Below the pieces are notes generated by a model that did not search any database, had not been told where the DNA came from, and worked only from the letters and a program-made list of their open reading frames with translations. Made by a program: the position numbers and the translations under genes. This document shows positions 3,450 through 27,570 of a DNA stretch of 32,671 nt, one piece after another (the first letter of the stretch is position 1; each line of letters begins with the position of its first letter). This DNA is from Opitutaceae bacterium (lineage in GTDB: Bacteria; Verrucomicrobiota; Verrucomicrobiia; Opitutales; Opitutaceae): assembly GCA_003164715.1 (NCBI GenBank), contig PLTZ01000085.1, positions 1 to 32,671 of the forward strand. Direction: 5' to 3'.

Positions 3450-4925
3450 ATGACATCCATCGCCGTTTCCGCCGCTAAGCATTCCGATGCCGAGCTCGTT
3501 GAGCAAAGCCTAGCAGGAGACCGTCAAGCCTTTGGCAGAATCGTAGCTCGTTACCAAGCTTTGGTCTGCGCGCTCGCTTACAGCGCCACCGGCAATCGCA
3601 GCCACAGTGAGGATTTGGCCCAGGAGACGTTTCTCACGGCGTGGCAAAAGCTGCGTGACCTGCACGAACCCTCCCGGCTCTGCGCGTGGCTTTGCGGCAT
3701 CGCCCGCAATGTCATTCATGGCGACCTCCGCCGACTCGGTCGCCAGCCTGCGCACGAGGCGACTACGCTCGATACCACGCAGGGGCTTCAGTCCGCCGAC
3801 CCACTTCCCGACGCGCAAGCGGTCAGCAATGAGGAGATGGCCATCCTCTGGCGCGAGGTTGGACGTCTGCCAGAGATCTACCGCGAGCCTCTAATCCTGT
3901 TCTATCGCGATCACAAGTCGGCGGAGCATGTGGCTGAGGCGCTCGGACTTACTTCCGACGCCGTTATGCAGAGGCTGACCCGCGGCCGCCGGCAGTTGCA
4001 GGAACACATGATGGAGTTTGTCGAATCCACGCTGCAACGGACCAACCCCGGTTCCCAATTCACCCATCAGGTTCTGGTCGGAATTCCCCTTCTTGTGGGA
4101 GCAGGGCCTGCTGTTGCCATGGGCGCTGCCACCAAGGGCGGCATGGCGGCCAAGGGAGGCATTCTTGGAATCATGCTATCATGGATCGCACCCTTTGTCG
4201 GTGTCTTTGCCGCCATAGGGATGTCTTGGGCCGATATCTCCCAGGCGGCGACGAGGCGCGAACGTCGATTCGTGCTCCGATGGACGCTTGTGCTCTGGCT
4301 CTCCGTGGTGGGATTTGTGACGGCACTGATCGGCATCGGTGCTCTGGCCCGGTCCGCAGATGTGTATCACCGCCAGGACTGGACGACGACCGCACCGATG
4401 GTCGCCATTTGGTTCGGTTATGCGATGATTGCGATGACCCTGATCGTGTTTCTGTTCCGGGGGAAAAGCTCGCTGCGTCGTCAAATGATTGCCGAAGGGC
4501 TCATTCGATCCTCCGCGCAGGCACCAACCACGATGAAGAAGAGCGTGGCGATGACGGCGGGCTTCCTGACGGCGGCCTTCTGGGTGTTGATCTTCCTCGC
4601 CTGGCAAACCGGCGACCGGTCCGTGGCCGTTGGGATAGTGTGCGGCGTGGTCCTACTGGGAGCAGTCCCTCTCTGGCTAGGTCGGAAGATGCCTTCCACG
4701 GTCAACGAGGGGAATGCTGGGGGCTGGTATGTCTCCTCTTGCGGCCTAATCTTCCTCGGCATCTTGAACTGGCGCCTCGATGTTTGGCTGGCGCCCATCT
4801 ATGGCGTCGGAATGGACGCTATGAATCGCCTTCTCCCAATGGCCATCATCCACTGGCTCACTGCGATCGTGATCGCCTGGACCGCTGCACTCGTGTTCAT
4901 CACCCAAGCGGACGAGAAGGCCTGA
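3450..4925 (+). CDS. ECF sigma factor fused to a multi-pass membrane domain
   Basis: A 491-residue protein. Residues about 12-90 form sigma region 2 (DRQAFGRIVARY, then SEDLAQETFLTAW), and about 125-185 form region 4 with a helix-turn-helix (LPEIYREPLILFY, AEALGLTSDAVMQRLTRGR). The rest, about 205-485, is hydrophobic with six or seven likely membrane spans (roughly 235-258, 272-298, 313-336, 366-384, 390-411, 428-446, 462-485). ECF factors are normally about 160-200 residues and held by a separate membrane anti-sigma factor; here the membrane part is in the same chain and no anti-sigma gene follows. I infer a membrane-tethered, perhaps self-inhibited sigma factor. The ATG at 3450 has GGTGA upstream and starts just before the conserved region. 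The gene converges on the TonB receptor gene. Confidence 0.88.
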   Translation: MTSIAVSAAKHSDAELVEQSLAGDRQAFGRIVARYQALVCALAYSATGNRSHSEDLAQETFLTAWQKLRDLHEPSRLCAWLCGIARNVIHGDLRRLGRQPAHEATTLDTTQGLQSADPLPDAQAVSNEEMAILWREVGRLPEIYREPLILFYRDHKSAEHVAEALGLTSDAVMQRLTRGRRQLQEHMMEFVESTLQRTNPGSQFTHQVLVGIPLLVGAGPAVAMGAATKGGMAAKGGILGIMLSWIAPFVGVFAAIGMSWADISQAATRRERRFVLRWTLVLWLSVVGFVTALIGIGALARSADVYHRQDWTTTAPMVAIWFGYAMIAMTLIVFLFRGKSSLRRQMIAEGLIRSSAQAPTTMKKSVAMTAGFLTAAFWVLIFLAWQTGDRSVAVGIVCGVVLLGAVPLWLGRKMPSTVNEGNAGGWYVSSCGLIFLGILNWRLDVWLAPIYGVGMDAMNRLLPMAIIHWLTAIVIAWTAALVFITQADEKA

Positions 4926-19171: not shown

Positions 19172-19261
19172 CCCCTGAGCGCGGGCTCCTGATAAGGGAA
19201 CCGGGGCGGCCGCCGGTCCCGCGTCGGCGCCCCGCCGGGGGATTCGCCCAGGAGAGCGCCG

Positions 19262-19609
19262 ATACCCCTAAACAACGAGGCGAGCATCCGCAGCATGGCC
19301 GTGGGCCTTATGCGGCGGATCGGGCTCGACATCGTTACCGTCGAGCAGTTCAAGAGCGCGAAGGAGGAGGGCAGGCCCTTCTCGCTCGTCATCATGGACC
19401 TGACGGTCCCGGGAGGCATGGGCGGGCGCGAGGCGATCGGGCTGCTGCGCGCGATCGACCCGAAGGTGAAGGCCGTGGTCTCGAGCGGGTACTCGAGCGA
19501 CCCGATCCTCGCCAACTACCGCGACTACGGCTTCTGCGGCGTGGCCTCGAAACCCTACGACGCCATGAAGTTCAGCCGCGTGATTGGCGAGTCGCTCGGC
19601 GTGGCCTAG
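19262..19609 (+). pseudogene. Decayed response-regulator receiver domain
   Basis: This reading frame resembles the last 120 residues of a hybrid kinase or response regulator, for example the receiver of the kinase at 22005-25475. Conserved pieces are EGRPFSLVIMDLTVP with the phospho-acceptor Asp, SSGYSSDPILANYRDYGF and SKPYD with the conserved Lys. Signs of decay: the frame opens at 19196 with no usable start before the ATG at 19295, which falls inside the first helix; the acidic DDE position reads NNE (19271-19279); and about seven codons are missing between VTV and EQFKSA relative to the intact receiver. Any kinase part is gone. A translated product from 19295 (104 residues) would lack the first strand and metal-binding acids. 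Its TAG overlaps the GH92 stop on the other strand in one CTAG. Confidence 0.65.
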
Positions 19610-21891
19610 CGTGCGGCCGGCCCGGCCGAGAGGGGCGAGGGCGGCGCGGGGCCCTCGGGCCACGACGACGGCCTGTTGCCCATCTTTAGGACGAGGGATC
19701 CCCCGGCCATGAGGTCGTCGTGGCGGATCCACGCCCGGTCGTACGGACGGCCGTCCAGATCAGCCGAGGTGACGTAGAAGTTCGCCTCGGACAGGTTCTC
19801 GGCCCGGATCGTGAACGTCCGGCCGTTCGCGAGCTTAAGACTCACCGCCGAGAACACTGGGGTCCCGATCAGGTAGTAGTCCTGGCCGGCGTTTGGGAAG
19901 ATCCCGATCGCGCCGAAGGCGTACCACGCCGCCATCGCGCCCGAGTCGTCATTGCCCGGCAGCCCGCCGGGCGTGGCGGAGTAGTTCTTTGCGAGGATGC
20001 TATGGACGCGCTCCGCGGTCTTGTCGTGGCGCCCGGCCCAGATGTAGAGGTACGGGGTGAGGAAGAAGGGCTCGTCGCCCACGTCGCATAGGCCGGGCGT
20101 GTCGAAGAGGGCGTCTAGCCGGCCGATGAACTTCGCCGGGCCGCCCATCCTGGCGATCAGGCCCGCGACGTCCTGCGGGACGAAGAAGGAGTACGTCCAC
20201 GAGTTTCCCTCGTAGAAGGAGTCGCCGTACCACGAGCAACCCTCGGACGCCTTGAAGGGCTCCTTCCACGCGCCGCCCAGGTGCCTGGGCCGGATGAACC
20301 CCGAGTATCCGCCTTCGGCGAAATCCGGGTCCCAGAGGTTTTGCCACTGGCGCGCTCTCCCGAGATATTTCTCCGCGTCCTCCAGCCTGCCGAGACCCCG
20401 GGCCATCTCGGCGGCCCCGAAGTCGTCGTAGGCGTACTCCATGGTCTTCGACGCCGGGCGGTCGATCCCCTCGATGCTGCAGTACCCCAGGGTGCACCAG
20501 TCTCCGAGGCCGCCGCGGCCCTCCTTCATCGGGTCGACCGGCGGAACCTCGGCGTCCCTGACCACCGCGGCGTAGGCCTCGTGCCAATCGACGCCGGGGA
20601 CGTGCTTGACGTAGGCGTCGGCGATCACGATGTCGGCATCGCTTCCGCCCTGTGTGCGGCCGTTGGCGTTGCCTGAGCGGCCGTCCGGCAGAAATCCGTC
20701 GTGCCTGGCGATATCCACCAGCGCCCGGACGATCCCCGCCTCCCGTTCCTGCGCAACCAGCGTCAGAAGCGGGTTTGTGACCCGGAACGTGTCCCAGAGG
20801 GTATAGAAATCGTCGTAGGACGGCTCGGGGGACGTCCACAGCGGGTTCTCCCCCGTCCGGTCGGCCGGCATGAGCATGGCGTGGTAGAGCGCGGTGTAGA
20901 GGAGCGTCCGCTCGGCCTGCGTCCCGCCGGCGACCTGGACCGTGGCGAGCGCCCTCCTCCAGGCGTCGACCCCGGCAGCCAGCGTCTTCCGGAAATCGAA
21001 CCGCTCGATCTCGCGCGTGTTGGCCCGGGCCTGGGCGACGCTCAGGAACGAGATCCCGACCTTCAGCCGCACGACCCTGCCCGGCGGGAAGTCCAGCCAG
21101 GCCCCGGTCAGAATCTGGCCGCCCGACTCGAGCTTGCCGCCCGGGTGGAGCGGATGCAGGTCCTGCCGGTTCCATGTGCCGAAGCCCTCTGCAGGGGTGT
21201 CGGTGACGGCGTAGAAGAAGACGGTGAACGGGCGGGTCTGCTCGTTCCATCCCCCGATGAGCGTGGTCGAGCCCGCCACCTCGGTCGGGGACAGCACCTG
21301 GGCGGTCGAGGCCGCCACCATCTGCCCCTCATGGTAGGGGATTCCGGAGCAGAGGCAGTGGCCGGCGTCGAACAGGAGGTGGGCCTGGCCTCCGGCCGGG
21401 AACGTGAACCGGTAGAGGGCGGCGCGGTTGGCCGCCGTCACCTCGGCGCGAACGCCGTAGCGCTTGAGGGTTACGGCATAGTAGCAAAGCCGCGTCTCCT
21501 CGTGCTCCGGCGGCGAGCCAATGTCGTCGATTGCCAGCAGGCCGACCGTGGGCTGGATCAGGATGTTGCCGTATTTCGCGCCGCCGCCGGTGCCGCTCAC
21601 GTGGGTCTGGCTGAACCCGTTGATGTTGTCCCCCGGCGCATAGCCCGAGTTCTGGTCGTTGGCGCCCGTGTCCGGCCCGGGCTTGATCATCCCGAAGGGC
21701 AGGGAGGGGCCGATGATCGTGTTGCCCCCGTCCCGTGTCCCGATCGCGGGGTCGACCAGGTCCACGTTCTCCGCGCGAAGGACCGTCGCCGCAAGAATAA
21801 GAGAGGCGAGGCCAAGCACCGTGGCCGTCCTGCAGGGCGTACTGCCGCCCGTCGATGCCGTGCACCGTCCTTTGAATGGCTTTGGATTCAT
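19606..21891 (-). CDS. GH92 alpha-mannosidase, secreted
   Basis: A 761-residue family GH92 exo-alpha-mannosidase, a calcium-dependent inverting enzyme family acting on alpha-1,2-, 1,3-, 1,4- or 1,6-linked mannose. The N-terminal beta-sandwich begins with VDLVDPAIGTRDGGNTIIG and LPFGMIKPGPDT, with FSQTHVSGTGG following. The (alpha/alpha)6 barrel includes YDDFYTLWDTFRVTNPLLTL, GGSDADIVIADAYVK, and the late signature GNDDSGAMAAWYAFGAIGIFP. Length matches the family (about 700-780). I chose the ATG at 21891 (MNPKPFKGRC), giving a signal peptide-like segment near residues 22-40 (ATVLGLASLILAATVLRAEN). The closely preceding ORF extension is not protein-like. It lies 113 bp downstream of the hybrid kinase gene on the same strand and could share its transcript. 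Confidence 0.93.
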   Translation of the reverse strand: MNPKPFKGRCTASTGGSTPCRTATVLGLASLILAATVLRAENVDLVDPAIGTRDGGNTIIGPSLPFGMIKPGPDTGANDQNSGYAPGDNINGFSQTHVSGTGGGAKYGNILIQPTVGLLAIDDIGSPPEHEETRLCYYAVTLKRYGVRAEVTAANRAALYRFTFPAGGQAHLLFDAGHCLCSGIPYHEGQMVAASTAQVLSPTEVAGSTTLIGGWNEQTRPFTVFFYAVTDTPAEGFGTWNRQDLHPLHPGGKLESGGQILTGAWLDFPPGRVVRLKVGISFLSVAQARANTREIERFDFRKTLAAGVDAWRRALATVQVAGGTQAERTLLYTALYHAMLMPADRTGENPLWTSPEPSYDDFYTLWDTFRVTNPLLTLVAQEREAGIVRALVDIARHDGFLPDGRSGNANGRTQGGSDADIVIADAYVKHVPGVDWHEAYAAVVRDAEVPPVDPMKEGRGGLGDWCTLGYCSIEGIDRPASKTMEYAYDDFGAAEMARGLGRLEDAEKYLGRARQWQNLWDPDFAEGGYSGFIRPRHLGGAWKEPFKASEGCSWYGDSFYEGNSWTYSFFVPQDVAGLIARMGGPAKFIGRLDALFDTPGLCDVGDEPFFLTPYLYIWAGRHDKTAERVHSILAKNYSATPGGLPGNDDSGAMAAWYAFGAIGIFPNAGQDYYLIGTPVFSAVSLKLANGRTFTIRAENLSEANFYVTSADLDGRPYDRAWIRHDDLMAGGSLVLKMGNRPSSWPEGPAPPSPLSAGPAAR

Positions 21892-22004
21892 GGTTGCGCT
21901 TAAGGCCGAGCCTCCTCCTATCGGGGCGTCTAAACAATGTGATTCCGGCCCCATCTACGCGATGTGGGGGTCTTCGGTCTGCACTTTGGACTCGCAGCCG
22001 GCGG

Positions 22005-25000
22005 TCAGAGCGTCCGGATCCCCGGTAGGAGCCTCTTGATCGTCTCCGTCAGCGTGGCGATGTCGTAGGGCTTCGGCACGACGGCCTGGAAGCCGTAGTC
22101 GCTAAAGTTGGCCATGACCGGGTCTCGCGAGTAGCCGCTGCAGACGATGGCCGGGACGTTCGAGCCGGATTTCCGGATGGCCTCGATCGTCGCCTGGCCC
22201 CCTATGCCGTTTGGGATCGTCAGGTCGAGAATCAAGAGCGAGAAGGGCCTCCCCGCACTCTGCGCCGCCTCGAACTCCCGCAGGGCGGACTCGCCGTCCG
22301 GCACGGCGGTGGGTTCGAGCCCCAACTTTCTCAGGACGACGGAGCCGATCCGGCGGATGCTCTCCTCGTCATCCATGAGGAGGACGCGGGTGGCGGGCGC
22401 GGGGGAGGGGGCCGGGGCCGGGCCGGCGGGCGCCGCCGCCGCCGCCTTCGGCGCCACGTCCCCGCTGGCGACGCAGGCGGGGAGCCAGACCGTGAAGACC
22501 GTGCCGAGCCCAGCGACCGACTGGACCTCGATGTACCCTTGGTGCTTCCTGATGATCGAGAAGGCCGTGGGCAGCTCGAGGCCGTCGCCGGACCTCTTGG
22601 TGGCGAAGAAGGGCTCGAAGATCCGCGGCAGCTCGTTTGCCGGGATGGCCTCGCCGGTGTCGGCGATGGTGATCTTCAGGTACGCGCCCGGGGGGAGCGT
22701 GTGGGATCCTTTCTGGACGTCCGCATTGGCCAGCGTGATCCGCACGGCGCCCGGGGCGGGCATGGCCCTCACCGCGTTGCGCATGAGGACCTGCAGCGTC
22801 TGGCTAATCTGCTCCGGGTCCACCCTCGCGGGCCGCAGGTCCGCCGCGATCTCGCAGGCGCACCTCCCCGGCACGCCGTCCGAGGCGCGCGCCGCGGCCT
22901 CGCGCACGATGGCGGACAGGTCGACGGCGGTGCGCATTGGCTCCCCGCCCTCGGAGAAGGTGAGCAACCGCCGCGTGAGCTCGCGGGCCCGCAGGGTCCC
23001 CTTCTCGATCTCGCGCACCTGCTCCTCCTCGGATCCCATGACCAGGGGATTGAGCTTCATCAGCGAGAGGTTCCCCATGATCACCGTGAGCAGGTTGTTG
23101 TAGTCGTGGGCGATGCCCCCGGCCAGCCGGCCGAGCGACTCGAGCCTCGCCGCGCGCTGCACCTCGGCCTCGAGGCGCGCCTGCTGCTCCATCTGGGCGC
23201 GCAGCTGCGCCGTCTGCTGGCGGACCCGCCGGCGCAGCGCGCCGATCCACGCGAGGCCGAGGAGCACGCAGCCCCCGAGCATGGCCGCGACCAAGAGCGA
23301 CCGCCGGACCGTCCAGAATCGCGGGCGGGTGGTGACCGCCATGTCCGCCGGCGTGCGCGCCAGGAGCGCGAAGGTGCGGGGCTGGTGGAAGTCGTCGAAG
23401 ATCAGCTGGTAGATGCCGGTGACCTCGAGGCCGGCCCCGACGGGAAGGTCCAGGTCGTCGGCGCCGGCCAGGTGGTCGAACGCGACGTCAAAATGGGTGT
23501 CTCCCTGGTACAGGGTGAGGCGGGTGTGCCCGGCGCTGCGGACCAGGTTCATCAGCATGCCGTGCAGGCGCACCAGGCGGTAGTCGTCCTCGGGCACGAG
23601 CGGCCGGGCCTCCGGCAGGACGACCGGCTGCGGCGGCGCACCCGCGCCGATCCTCCTGCAGACGGCCTCGCGCAGGATGGTGCGGGCGCCCTCGCGCCCG
23701 AGGATCCCCACCGCCTCGATGCGGTCGCCCGGCACGAGGCGCAGGTTCTCCCGGCTCAGCAGCAGCAGGCCCTTGCCCGCGTCGTCCATGTAGATGCGCT
23801 GGCCGGCGATGGCGAAGAGCACCGTGCCGGTGACCCGCGCCCTGAGCATGCCCTGGCCCGCGCTGATCTCATCCAGGTCCGCGGCGTGGCACAGCGGGAG
23901 GTCGTACAGGTCGGCTGGGGCGTCCTCCTCGACCGTGATGTCGTGGAGGAACGGGATCCGCAGCATGACCGAGGCCGAGAGGCCGTCGACGCCCGCCTGC
24001 GTCTCGCAGACCCCGCGGACGCGGATGAGCGAGCCCGGGTTCGCCGCGAAGGTGACCGGGTTCTGCAGGTGCCCCACGAAGTCCCCCGAGGGGGTCGTGA
24101 CGAAGATCCAGCGCCAGTCGCCCTCGGAGACGACGCTCCGGACAAAGCCCCGCATCTCGACCCATCCCCCGTCCTCCCTGCCGGTCAGGGCCTGCTCAAG
24201 CGTGATGGGCTTGGCCGGAGGATAGTTCATCGAGCCGAGGTCGGCGAAGTCGCTCAGCTCGACGGTGGGACTGACCCTGCCTGCGCGCGTCACGCCCTTC
24301 ACCTCGAGGTATTTCACGAACTGGAAGAAGCCCGCCTTCGCGCGGTCGTAGTGGACGCGGACGCCGCCGGAGAGATCCTGCAGGTAGAAGAAGTCCGACT
24401 CCAGCTGCGACCACGTGACCGTGCCCCGGAGGTCGACCGCGAGGCCTTGCGCGGCCCGCGCGTTGCCGACCGCCTTCACCTCGGACACGGTCGTCAGGAC
24501 CCTCCGCGCGGCGTGCTGCGCCATGCCGGACTCGGCGGCCGGCCTGTAGAGCGCCTTGTCGATCACCCACCTGGAGCCGTCGAGCCCTACGCGCCCGATG
24601 GCCTCCGCCCCGGACCCCTGGAGAAGGTGCCTCGTCTGGATCGAGCGGACCTCCACCTGGCCCGTGTCGTCGCCCAGCGTGAGCACCGTCCCGACCTGGT
24701 GGCTCCTGACTACGCCCCGCACCCTGACCTCCGTGCCGGGCGCCAGGCGGTAGAGGTCGTTGATGGCCGTGACGGGCGCGCCGAACCGCGGGCTTTCGTC
24801 CAGGGTTCCCTGGACCTTGAGTCCGGCCTGGCCGGCCATCCAGATCTCTATGAAGGCGTTTGTTTTCGAGGGATCAAAGCGGCGGGAGTACAGCCCGGTC
24901 ACCCGCACGAAGTGGTTGCGCCAGTCGGGCACATGGTCCGGGTCGTCGGGCTTGAGCCAGCAGACCACCGGGCGGTTCTCCACGATCAGGATAAGGCGGA

Positions 25001-25475
25001 CGTGGCTGGGATCGACCACCTGCTGGCTGTCGACGAAGCCGTCCGCGATCACCAGGCGGTCGGAGAAGGCGTTCAGGTCGTTGATCCGGCCCTCCGTCTC
25101 AAGCACGGTGGCGGGTGCGTTCTCCTCGATGACCCGCACAGTCACCTCGTCGGCGCTGAGTCCCATGTTTGGCGTGATCGTTCCCTCGATCACCACGAAC
25201 TGGCCGGAATGCATCACCGGGGGCTTGGCGGAAAGCCGGACGTAGACGCTCAAATGATCCTCGCGCTCGATCCAGAATAGCCCGTATTGCGAATCGTAAT
25301 AATTGACGCGACCCTGAAGCCGGAGGGGGTGGGCCTGCGACTTTTCGTCGGTAGGCATCGCCCACACCATTTCCGGATCGGTAATGGTGGGCCATTTTTG
25401 CTCCGTCGCCACAGCGGGAACGCGGCCAAGAAGCACGAGGCCGATCCCCAGCAGTCCCACCCGGCGCAGGCGCAA
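22005..25475 (-). CDS. Hybrid histidine kinase with periplasmic OB-like array
   Basis: A roughly 1156-residue sensor kinase. I chose the TTG at 25475, three bases after AGGAGG, because it opens a clean signal peptide (MRLRRVGLLGIGLVLLG, cleavage after VPAVA); a longer frame reaches an ATG at 25700 but its first 75 residues look non-coding. Residues about 45-715 hold some seven repeated beta-rich modules of OB-fold type, each with a pattern like VxVRGxV followed by xxLxDxTGxVxV. A membrane span (about 726-745) and a coiled coil lead to the H-box GGIAHDYNNLL with H790 and N-box N900. The ATP-lid boxes are altered: DTGEA instead of DTGxG (939-943), and GLEL instead of GLGL (965-968). An Ala/Pro linker then joins a complete receiver with DDE (1035-1037), D1084 and K1135. 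The signal sensed is unknown. Confidence 0.88.
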   Translation of the reverse strand: MRLRRVGLLGIGLVLLGRVPAVATEQKWPTITDPEMVWAMPTDEKSQAHPLRLQGRVNYYDSQYGLFWIEREDHLSVYVRLSAKPPVMHSGQFVVIEGTITPNMGLSADEVTVRVIEENAPATVLETEGRINDLNAFSDRLVIADGFVDSQQVVDPSHVRLILIVENRPVVCWLKPDDPDHVPDWRNHFVRVTGLYSRRFDPSKTNAFIEIWMAGQAGLKVQGTLDESPRFGAPVTAINDLYRLAPGTEVRVRGVVRSHQVGTVLTLGDDTGQVEVRSIQTRHLLQGSGAEAIGRVGLDGSRWVIDKALYRPAAESGMAQHAARRVLTTVSEVKAVGNARAAQGLAVDLRGTVTWSQLESDFFYLQDLSGGVRVHYDRAKAGFFQFVKYLEVKGVTRAGRVSPTVELSDFADLGSMNYPPAKPITLEQALTGREDGGWVEMRGFVRSVVSEGDWRWIFVTTPSGDFVGHLQNPVTFAANPGSLIRVRGVCETQAGVDGLSASVMLRIPFLHDITVEEDAPADLYDLPLCHAADLDEISAGQGMLRARVTGTVLFAIAGQRIYMDDAGKGLLLLSRENLRLVPGDRIEAVGILGREGARTILREAVCRRIGAGAPPQPVVLPEARPLVPEDDYRLVRLHGMLMNLVRSAGHTRLTLYQGDTHFDVAFDHLAGADDLDLPVGAGLEVTGIYQLIFDDFHQPRTFALLARTPADMAVTTRPRFWTVRRSLLVAAMLGGCVLLGLAWIGALRRRVRQQTAQLRAQMEQQARLEAEVQRAARLESLGRLAGGIAHDYNNLLTVIMGNLSLMKLNPLVMGSEEEQVREIEKGTLRARELTRRLLTFSEGGEPMRTAVDLSAIVREAAARASDGVPGRCACEIAADLRPARVDPEQISQTLQVLMRNAVRAMPAPGAVRITLANADVQKGSHTLPPGAYLKITIADTGEAIPANELPRIFEPFFATKRSGDGLELPTAFSIIRKHQGYIEVQSVAGLGTVFTVWLPACVASGDVAPKAAAAAPAGPAPAPSPAPATRVLLMDDEESIRRIGSVVLRKLGLEPTAVPDGESALREFEAAQSAGRPFSLLILDLTIPNGIGGQATIEAIRKSGSNVPAIVCSGYSRDPVMANFSDYGFQAVVPKPYDIATLTETIKRLLPGIRTL

Positions 25476-25718
25476 AAGCCTCCTGGATAAACTATTGCAA
25501 TCCCCGGCCACCGCCGTGAACAGCGATTGGAAATTGCCCTGGGGTACGCGGCAAAGACGGGGCACGTTGGGGCCTGTTATCCTAGGAGACTTGTGGGACA
25601 CATTCCATCTCCATTTATCGACGCGCAGGCGCCTCGGGTTAACCAAGGGCCGCCCGATGCCGTGTCTCAAGAGGCGTCGTCCCGGGACTGGCGCACCCAA
25701 CGCAGGGATTGCGCGGGA

Positions 25719-26636
25719 TCAGGCGGGCAGGAAATTCCGAAGGAAGCGCCCGCTTTGGAGCAGGGCCTCCTGGCGCAGCTCCCGTGTCGCCTCGTAGGCC
25801 CGGTCCTCGACCTCGACGCACACGGGTCCGTCGTAGCCGCAATCGCGGAGCGCGCAGAGGAAGGCCCCCCAGTCGATGTCGCCCAGGCCCGGAAGCTTCG
25901 GGGAGTGATAGTCGAGCGGCGGGGCCAGGATGCCGACGTCGTTCAGCCTCGCGCGGTCCACCTTCACGTCCTTCGCATGCACGTGAAAGATGCGGTCCGC
26001 GAATTCGCGCAGGGGCGCGACGGGGTCCATCTGCTGCCAGACCATGTGGGACGGGTCGTAGTTGAGGCCGAGCGCGCGGCTCGGGATGCGCCGGAACATC
26101 TCGCGCCAGGCCCGCGGCGAGACCGCGAGGTTCTTGCCGCCGGGCCACTCGTCCTTGGTGAAGAACATCGGGCAGTTCTCGATGCCGATCCGCACGCCCG
26201 CGGCCTCGGCGTGCCGGACGATCGCCGGCCAGCGCTCGTCGAACACCCTCCAGTTGTCGTCCGGCGTGCGCGCGGGATCGCGGCCGACGAACGTGTTCAC
26301 CTGGTTGACGCCGAGGAGCGCTGCGGCGGAGATCACCTTCTTCAGGTGGCCGATGCAGACCTCGGCCTCCCCCTCGTCGGCCGCCAGCAGGTTCGGGTAG
26401 TAGCCGAGTCCTGAAAGCGAGACGCGGTGCCTCGCGCAGAGCGCGAGGACGGCGTCGGCCTCCGGGCGGCCGAACCGCGACGCGTCGATGTGCGTCACGC
26501 CCGCGTAGCGGCGCTCGGCCCTGCCGACGGGCCAGCACATTGGCTCGACCGTTTCGAACCCGGCCTCCTTGGCGAAGGCCAGGACGTGGTCCAGGTCGAG
26601 GTCGGGAAGAATGGCGGACACGAATCCAAGTTTCAT
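25719..26636 (-). CDS. Sugar phosphate isomerase/epimerase (xylose isomerase-like TIM barrel)
   Basis: A 305-residue AP endonuclease 2/xylose isomerase-like TIM barrel, a family of metal-dependent sugar isomerases and epimerases. The ATG at 26636 matches the family start ([15 protein letters not shown]); GGAAG-like purines (GGAAG) lie about 9 bp upstream. Metal ligands expected in the barrel are visible: E153 in GIENCP, D194 and H197 in NYDPSHM, H220 in FHVHAKD, and E275 in CVEVED. No signal peptide is present, so it acts in the cytoplasm. The exact substrate is not readable; rare-sugar or inositol-type ketose/aldose interconversion is typical. It is divergent from deoC and separated by 145 bp, suggesting shared control, and lies upstream of the sensor kinase on the same strand. 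Confidence 0.9.
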
Positions 26637-26650
26637 GGTGGGGGTCTTCC

Positions 26651-26680
26651 GGAAGCCGAGGGCGGGAAAAGACGGCTTCC
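26651..26680. promoter_or_regulatory. Inverted repeat between the divergent isomerase and deoC genes
   Basis: Perfect 8-bp arms, GGAAGCCG (26651-26658) and CGGCTTCC (26673-26680), are separated by 14 bp. The element sits 15 bp upstream of the isomerase start and about 100 bp upstream of deoC, where an operator could control both. It also overlaps the isomerase ribosome-binding region. The binding protein is unknown. Confidence 0.4.
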
Positions 26681-26742
26681 CCTTGCGCGCATAAGGGCGT
26701 AGTACGAAATCCCGCGGCCTACAAGGCCCGGCCACGCCCGGA

Positions 26743-26759
26743 GGCGCGGTGCCCGCGCC
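26743..26759 (+). promoter_or_regulatory. GC hairpin in the deoC leader
   Basis: A perfect 7-bp stem, GGCGCGG and CCGCGCC with loop TGC, ends 22 bp before the deoC ATG. It has no following T-run on the plus strand, so it is more likely a leader structure than a terminator. An effect on deoC expression is inferred only from position. Confidence 0.4.
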
Positions 26760-26781
26760 AGGCCCCACTTCCTCATTCTCC

Positions 26782-27570
26782 ATGAACCCAGAACCCACCC
26801 AGCCCTCAGTACTCGAGCTCGCCAAGATGATCGACCACTCGCTCCTGCATCCGACGATGACGGACGCCCAGCTCGACGCCGGGTGCGCACTCGCGATCCG
26901 CTGCGACGTGGCCACCGTCTGCGTGAAGCCCTACTACGTGCCGCGCGCGGCCGAGCTCACGAGGGGCACGGGCGTCCTCGTCTGCTCGGTCATCGGCTTT
27001 CCGCACGGCAACAGCCACACCGAGATCAAGGTCCGCGAGGCCGAGCTCGCCATGGCCGAGGGCGCCAAGGAGATCGACATGGTGGCCAACGCCGGGCGGG
27101 TGCTCGGCGGCAACCTGCGCTATGTCGCGGACGACATCCGGCAGGTGAACGCGGCCTGCGTCGCCCGCGGCGCGATTCTCAAGGTCATCTTTGAGAATGA
27201 CTACCTGCAGGACCCGCAGATTATCCAACTGTGCGAGATCTGCTCGGAGATCGGCGTGGCCTTCGTCAAGACGTCGACCGGCTACGGCTTCGTGAAGCAG
27301 CCGAACGGCGACTACAACTACAAGGGGGCGACGGAGCGCCAGCTAAGGCTCATGCGCGCCCACTGCCCGGAGAGGGTCCGGATCAAGGCCGCGGGGGGCG
27401 TGCGCACGCTGGACGACCTGTTGCTCGTGCGCTCGATCGGTGTCAGCCGGATCGGGGCGACGGCGACCGAGGCGATCCTTGGCGAGGCCGTGAAGCGCGG
27501 CCTGCCCGGGCCCATTCCCGCGGGACTGGGCCAGCCGGGCAAGGCGGCCATCGCGACACCGGGCTATTGA
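26782..27570 (+). CDS. deoC: Deoxyribose-phosphate aldolase
   Basis: A 262-residue class I aldolase that splits 2-deoxy-D-ribose 5-phosphate into acetaldehyde and glyceraldehyde 3-phosphate, in the cytoplasm. The key residues are all present: the Schiff-base Lys163 in FVKTSTGYG, Lys202 in IKAAGGVRT, and Asp99 in KEIDMV. Other family motifs are [11 protein letters not shown] near the N-terminus and [10 protein letters not shown]. The length and the N-terminal MIDHSLL element support the ATG at 26782; no strong Shine-Dalgarno sequence is visible. It does not sit in a nucleoside-salvage operon with deoA, deoB or deoD here, but faces a sugar isomerase. That suggests a role in catabolism of a sugar or deoxynucleoside pool that is not evident from the window. 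Confidence 0.95.

Follow-up and report, generated by a model that had tools for sequence, protein, structure and literature searches.

Architecture of the kinase and its periplasmic array

We here describe a hybrid histidine kinase, P0001, encoded on a 32,671-nucleotide stretch from an Opitutaceae bacterium (GenBank contig PLTZ01000085.1), the whole of which is referred to as the window. Its gene lies between those of a GH92 enzyme (GH, glycoside hydrolase family) and a xylose-isomerase-like protein. The open frame of 1156 amino acids (aa) starts with a TTG at 25475 having an AGGAGG sequence 3 bases upstream; the frame continues open beyond this start, with a further in-frame TTG at 25700 as an alternative start. 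Hydropathy analysis revealed one N-terminal hydrophobic segment (residues 6–24) and one membrane helix (727–745), and between the signal peptide region and this helix seven modules, M1 to M7, fill residues 47–721, or about 675 aa. In Pfam searches HATPase_c and Response_reg were found above their cut-offs and HisKA slightly under (26.3 versus 26.9 bits); together with the motifs, this placed a HisKA-type domain, a HATPase_c domain and a receiver on a single chain that has both the phospho-His and the phospho-Asp. Using NCBIfam, the region of about 757–1150 scored 216 bits with a VirA-like model and 184 bits with CckA, both far under the curated cut-offs.

The seven tandem modules are, with very little doubt, OB (oligonucleotide/oligosaccharide-binding) barrels that constitute the extracytoplasmic input of the kinase, which we accordingly term an OB-array sensor. 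The original prediction had proposed about 670 residues of repeated OB-like modules between signal peptide and membrane span, and this was borne out by module profiles with their controls, by OB families of Pfam and by structural models. No Pfam model reached its cut-off over the array of P0001, where the sub-threshold matches were headed by BOF, CcmE (which we take to be an OB fold) and tRNA_anti-codon, followed by the weaker Tudor and MlaD. BOF (PF04076) scored 15.9 bits against a cut-off of 25.8, which does not place P0001 in that family, and no NCBIfam model covered the array among the matches listed. When 19 related sensors were searched with Pfam, the three families with most matches were all OB families, i.e. 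tRNA_anti-codon (11 of 19, best E 4.8e-07), Rep_fac-A_3 (11 of 19, best E 7.9e-05) and BOF (7 of 19, best E 6.6e-07). A profile search against solved structures gave weak matches only (E 0.05 to 0.44), to one oxidoreductase and to two chains of RPA type.

An AlphaFold2 model of the whole array, based on a 19-row alignment, had a mean predicted local distance difference test score (pLDDT) of 86.3 and a predicted template modelling score (pTM) of 0.52, and a separate model of M1–M2 gave a pLDDT of 93.9 and a pTM of 0.87. The best Foldseek matches of the array model were the tandem-OB proteins HINab, CST, RPA, LEF-3 and BRCA2, with HIN domains aligning across both barrels of the M1–M2 model, and the VIA matches listed for both models were all to proteins that presumably contain OB folds. 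M2, M3, M4, M5 and M7 were matched directly with VIA. Among the matches listed M1 and M6 had none of their own; the assignment of M6 is based upon secondary structure and profile matches to M3 and M4, and that of M1 upon secondary structure, profile matches to M4 and M6, and the HIN alignments spanning M1–M2. A five-stranded OB barrel is thereby predicted for each module, by secondary structure and models. The matches listed in the structural comparison of the array were, as had been anticipated, OB barrels, with neither a propeller nor any other established sensor fold. A periplasmic sensor of the propeller, PAS/Cache or Y_Y_Y kind was rejected, having no Pfam support and being absent from the model and from the listed structural matches. 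In a viral fold library, tandem-OB proteins such as LEF-3 were also matched, along with many unnamed ones.

Profile–profile comparison divided the modules into two types, with M1, M3, M4 and M6 being of type A and M2, M5 and M7 of type B. The strongest within-type relations were M3–M6 (E 2.2e-21), M5–M7 (2.2e-15), M2–M7 (2.5e-11) and M2–M5 (2.6e-11), followed by M4–M6 (6e-09), M1–M4 and M1–M6 (both about 7e-07) and M3–M4 (1.1e-05). The best eight of the 21 module pairs scored 110 to 32, above every one of 49 reversed (maximum 26.8) and 147 column-shuffled (maximum 19.3) controls, and the other 13 pairs (M1–M3 and all A–B pairs) fell within or near the control range. Because the order along the chain is A-B-A-A-B-A-B, the array suggests growth largely by A–B pairs; the four-module core M4–M7 consists of two such pairs. 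In one relative, listed under both L022 and L036, the odd module M3 alone is missing. The features of P0001 and its adjoining genes are collected in Table 1.

Table 1. Positions in the window of the features of P0001 and of the genes on either side.
Feature	Position	Strand	Basis
P0001 (1156 aa), hybrid histidine kinase with seven periplasmic OB modules	22005..25475	-	Open frame, TTG and AGGAGG, Pfam
Signal peptide region, P0001 1–24	25404..25475	-	Hydropathy peak 6–24, then AVA-TEQ; cleavage putative
OB module M1, type A	25101..25337	-	AlphaFold2 models; profile match to M4 and M6; conservation
OB module M2, type B; conserved D155, H158	24798..25100	-	VIA Z 11.9 to AsnRS OB; profile match to M5 and M7
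OB module M3, type A; Q280 in 53/53 proteins	24513..24797	-	VIA Z 11.3 to PolD DP1 OB; M3–M6 E 2.2e-21
OB module M4, type A; VTW...D..GG motif	24225..24506	-	VIA Z 11.1 to YgiW (1nnx), 11.4 to an AsnRS
OB module M5, type B	23913..24224	-	VIA Z 13.4 to human AsnRS OB
OB module M6, type A; conserved R602	23613..23912	-	Profile match to M3 (2.2e-21), M4, M1
OB module M7, type B	23313..23612	-	VIA Z 11.8 to an OBody; M5–M7 E 2.2e-15
Transmembrane helix, P0001 727–745	23241..23297	-	Hydropathy
HisKA-type domain, H-box GGIAHDYNNLL	22950..23135	-	Pfam just under cut-off; motif
HATPase_c; N-box Asn present, G1 DTGEA (22641–22664), G2 GDGLEL (22560–22589)	22476..22820	-	Pfam, motif alignment
Receiver domain: acidic pair, phospho-Asp, Lys	22038..22385	-	Pfam, motifs
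GH92 glycoside hydrolase (context), 50 bp downstream of kinase	19606..21954	-	Pfam
Xylose-isomerase-like TIM barrel gene (context), 243 bp upstream of kinase TTG 25475	25719..26915	-	Pfam

Spread of the array family and its different outputs

A survey of the taxa and neighbouring genes that go with this architecture, as the original prediction had called for, found it recurring in what is apparently the Opitutaceae, with a four-module core across the Verrucomicrobiota and on one Acidobacteriota plasmid, and the array family is thus larger and more modular than could be seen from the sequence alone. In total 117 proteins were called, each with three or more modules of which M7 is the last, giving 81 after merging of identical sequences, with near copies still counted apart. 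These 81, fragments included, comprised 53 proteins with modules 1–7, 16 with modules 4–7, two ten-module proteins with modules 1-2-3 repeated, one without M3, and other or partial forms, the array length thereby ranging from 4 to 10 with a six-module form existing. No array protein was called for L070, L078, L084, L093, L115, L129 or L026, and L033 and L064 were fragmented. In L064 (G431:C1:439-2562) the array gene is split into short frames by three TAG codons, and was read as a broken gene.

At most 3 or 7 candidates per genome were scored in the large genome searches, whereby the counts are lower bounds: the long profile was matched in at least 41 of 288 genomes of a phylum sample and at least 55 of 150 of a family sample, and the four-module core in at least 72 of 236 of a class sample. 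Among the matches listed for the phylum sample, those to seven modules were found in the family of P0001 (apparently Opitutaceae) and other families mainly matched region 300–714. Exceptions from outside that listing were G039, from another family of the same order, which matched 26–678, and L035, a record labelled Lentisphaerae with all seven modules. The 19 named relatives were labelled as Verrucomicrobiota, including several as Opitutaceae and one as Lentisphaerae. The four-module core is found widely among Verrucomicrobiota. Of 72,556 plasmid records a single one matched, from Acidisarcina polymorpha (Acidobacteriota), which carries this core together with GGDEF. In the host genome itself (a 3.8 Mb draft) two further whole array kinases were found, 47% and 37% identical to P0001. 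Two unusual forms were also seen, one being a 1923-aa array kinase (L107:4679-10450) with about 800 residues ahead of M1 that gave no Pfam match at E up to 0.1, and the other a seven-OB protein without kinase (L095:10600-12957) that stops 35 residues past M7 and is encoded beside a divergently oriented array kinase.

The arrays are joined to several kinds of output, as transmitters of the CckA-like HDFNN, SHExRTP, VLHN and HisKA_3 types were found as well as GGDEF, and a hydrophobic segment follows within 70 aa after M7 in 75 of 77 array proteins according to hydropathy. In a quick tree of 77 arrays, with two rows classed as HisKA_3-like and with L128 and L041 possibly falsely joined, the transmitter class changes at least seven times, or six without two doubtful long-branch rows, and the label of long or short form changes once. 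Directly after the short form and on the same strand, a LuxR-type response regulator is encoded at 16 of 24 loci (one of these 24, L033, being a fragment of a long form), with Response_reg and GerE in 16 of 16; among 44 long-form loci, three have a gene of the same cluster in that position. One short-form clade with HisKA_3-type transmitters (L117, L119, L121, L122 and L124) has a PA14 match N-terminal to the array in all five members, each spanning about 35–40 of 147 model positions and four being above the Pfam cut-off (L121 at 23.2 versus 24), and GLEYA was listed in four of the five, once above its cut-off. PA14 and GLEYA are carbohydrate-binding folds. The OB array is, in short, a portable extracytoplasmic input unit.

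The extracytoplasmic inputs known for kinases are mostly PAS/Cache domains, helical bundles, periplasmic-binding-protein folds or propellers. The suggestion that the array is not a standard sensor stood with regard to the sequence libraries, no Pfam model being found at cut-off and no NCBIfam model covering it among the matches listed, and had to be modified in that the array is a recurring family. A literature search, judged on titles and the starts of abstracts of the papers listed, gave no description of OB-fold sensors of histidine kinases or of this architecture. New here is an input-domain architecture outside the searched libraries, on an otherwise known type of membrane histidine kinase; CckA- and VirA-like hybrid kinases likewise combine transmitter and receiver, but the NCBIfam models for those stop short of the input domain of P0001.

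Altered ATP-binding motifs

The G1 (DTGEA) and G2 (GDGLEL) boxes of P0001 are altered, its ATP-binding boxes thus not being intact, and the N-box Asn, the H-box His and the receiver residues are kept. Its nearest tree rows, L023 and L053, keep DxGxG and GLGL. Among 43 HDFNN-type kinases whose ATPase domain is not truncated, nine including P0001 had damage in at least two of the three motifs N, G1 and G2; in all nine the His of the H-box and the residues of the receiver are retained (one with ED for DD), and the other eight are, unlike P0001, without the N-box Asn. This label needs four changes on the tree, so that the damage likely arose in more than one event. Because its G1 and G2 boxes are altered, P0001 may be a weak kinase, or mainly a phosphatase or phospho-acceptor.

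That P0001 is instead decaying and no longer signals is improbable in our judgement. The loss of motifs intact in L023 and L053 and a receiver relic found 2.4 kb away would agree with decay, but the 1156-aa frame is undisrupted with the phosphotransfer residues in place, and the eight other ATP-damaged relatives retain their His and receiver too, even if all have lost the N-box Asn. The relic (19199-19609, plus strand) scored 27.4 bits with Response_reg against a cut-off of 30.2, is without the first strand and the acidic pair, and has its middle shortened. Its best match among the proteins compared, at 59%, was the receiver of L035, an array kinase, and the relic is probably a remnant of another hybrid kinase.

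The converse kind of damage was observed in L065, L069 and L104, which have the phospho-His replaced (R, R and Q, respectively) and the ATP motifs kept, and where a full receiver is missing. Complementing kinase pairs, though an attractive idea, were rejected as a general arrangement, since a search of six genomes of that genus gave for G415 a single array protein, the His-less one.

Candidate ligands and comparison with known systems

Lying next to GH92 and sugar-metabolism genes, the array had been proposed as a possible substrate sensor of its own locus. The window around P0001 indeed holds genes for two alpha-L-rhamnosidases (one of them GH106), for GH5 and GH2 enzymes, for a TonB receptor and a GPH-type transporter, and for an extracytoplasmic function (ECF) sigma factor. 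The ECF sigma factor gene (3450-4925, plus strand), adjoining that of the TonB-dependent receptor, encodes about 300 extra C-terminal residues with no Pfam match at E up to 0.001. The proposal did not hold as a rule, however, for within four genes of 44 long-form loci no carbohydrate cluster recurred, and the closest relative of P0001 (L023, 60% identical) has as neighbours a UPRTase, a DeoC-family aldolase and a transposase. A GH92-locus sensor as the general case was thus rejected upon both neighbour clustering and Pfam counts for the families listed, and since no carbohydrate gene recurs beside the long-form loci, the ligand need not be a local substrate. In Bacteroidota, polysaccharide loci have hybrid two-component systems (HTCS), which resemble P0001 in being hybrid kinases beside glycoside hydrolases. 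Their inputs are propeller and Y_Y_Y domains and they end with an AraC-type DNA-binding domain; P0001, in contrast, had no AraC-type domain with Pfam at E up to 1, its chain stopping after the receiver, and gave no Reg_prop or Y_Y_Y match.

Beyond the OB array with its two module types, the topology, the kinase and receiver domains and the recurrence with different outputs, all of which the computations established, we lean slightly towards P0001 being a single-pass hybrid kinase with an array that binds a long or multivalent ligand of the envelope or cell surface, with a glycan or glycoconjugate favoured. The ligand would bind across several barrels of the array, and binding would shift the spacing or orientation of the juxtamembrane segments of two chains in a dimer; the signal would then cross the single membrane helix and reach the His domain, with phosphate going to the attached receiver and on to a further partner in a presumed phosphorelay. 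A glycan or surface ligand is favoured because of the PA14-like domain in one short-form clade. The rhamnosidase, GH92, GH106, GH5 and GH2 genes around P0001 were also counted for a glycan-like ligand, an assignment that we hold tentatively and as somewhat short of even chance; an extended polymer is possible.

Several observations weigh against this interpretation. No neighbour cluster beyond that of the response regulator occurred at more than 4 of the 44 long-form loci, and Pfam counts for 153 neighbours against 104 control proteins gave no recurrent carbohydrate family among the families listed, a comparison with which a weak carbohydrate enrichment is compatible. For these counts, neighbours above 1300 aa were excluded, one short receiver relic was removed (154 to 153), and the controls were 104 of 154 sampled from 225, with control stretch L139 holding a short-form array kinase; GH26 and GH5 occurred twice each among the first 70 neighbours, and GH77 and GH88 once each in the controls. 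PA14 was found in one clade only. The ligands of OB folds include proteins, peptides and nucleic acids as well. In the array model the modules are well predicted, with a pTM of 0.52 not fixing the overall shape. Two of the three array kinases of the host genome, finally, have altered ATP boxes (G1 and G2 in P0001, and G2 only in L103/L003), the paralogue L002 being intact.

We find it rather unlikely that the array binds a protein or peptide, such as an envelope protein or cationic antimicrobial peptide, in the manner of periplasmic BOF proteins, thereby reporting envelope stress. BOF was among the best Pfam matches in the related sensors and YgiW structurally matches M4. Polymyxin B and LL-37 are bound by SipA, a BOF-family protein of Vibrio cholerae under the control of a two-component system (PMC6370654), and this precedent for cationic peptide binding goes together with an array of negative net charge in 53 of 53 seven-module proteins (mean -14, with M6 alone averaging +1.2). 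YgiW, YdeI and SipA are likewise periplasmic OB barrels with both sub-threshold sequence similarity and structural similarity to M4 (1nnx, Z 11.1), but they are small and free (SipA 15 kDa) with no anchor or kinase, as compared with seven barrels of two types in P0001. The BOF matches of P0001 are, moreover, under the cut-off, seven to ten barrels seem more than a peptide needs, and no such neighbour family recurs at the long loci, either among the clusters or among the Pfam families listed.

A still more doubtful proposal extends the favoured reading of a multivalent ligand. The arrays could be undescribed polyvalent receptors, with A–B OB pairs and 4–10 barrels in a row reading polymer length, that were moved onto HisKA, HisKA_3 and GGDEF outputs, some ATPase-less hybrids being sensor-controlled phospho-acceptors or phosphatases driven by an active paralogue. 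If so, the signal would depend on the length or multivalency of the ligand.

The array might also be mainly a spacer or dimerisation stalk, the true sensing site being one module or an N-terminal domain. The varying number of modules, the extra parts (PA14, long stretches) at the N-terminal side and the lowest entropy, and thus highest conservation, of M5 and M6 could be read in this way. We regard it as improbable, for several modules each keep non-glycine polar or aromatic residues of their own (W64, W68, H158, Q280, W355 and R602) that would be needless in a plain spacer. At least 85% of the 53 arrays keep these, with Y for W64 in P0001, as well as D61 and D155, and all eight are candidates for binding or inter-module contacts, as judged from conservation. 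The family motif of M1 is D-P-x-W-x3-W, in which P0001 has D, S, Y and W.

Extracellular nucleic acid bound over several barrels, as by CTC1, RPA or HIN domains, is the least probable alternative: the best multi-domain Foldseek matches were the tandem-OB DNA binders HINab, CST, RPA and BRCA2, but their TM-scores of 0.10–0.18 of the query show that the barrel arrangement does not match, no nuclease or competence family was among the recurrent neighbours listed (RNase_PH occurring twice), and such a ligand is unlikely because the array is acidic in all 53 cases. OB structures in the PDB are mostly from nucleic-acid proteins, which biases the match list. CTC1/CST, RPA, HIN-200 and baculovirus LEF-3 share with P0001 the several OB barrels per chain, and are nucleic-acid binders of the cell interior; the P0001 array differs in being acidic, periplasmic and fused to a kinase.

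The OB array, which is without Pfam coverage at cut-off, recurrent across Verrucomicrobiota and joined to several outputs, may represent a new sensor-domain family. It would allow annotators to identify many sensor regions that are now blank, and the array offers a concrete target for learning what these environmental bacteria sense.

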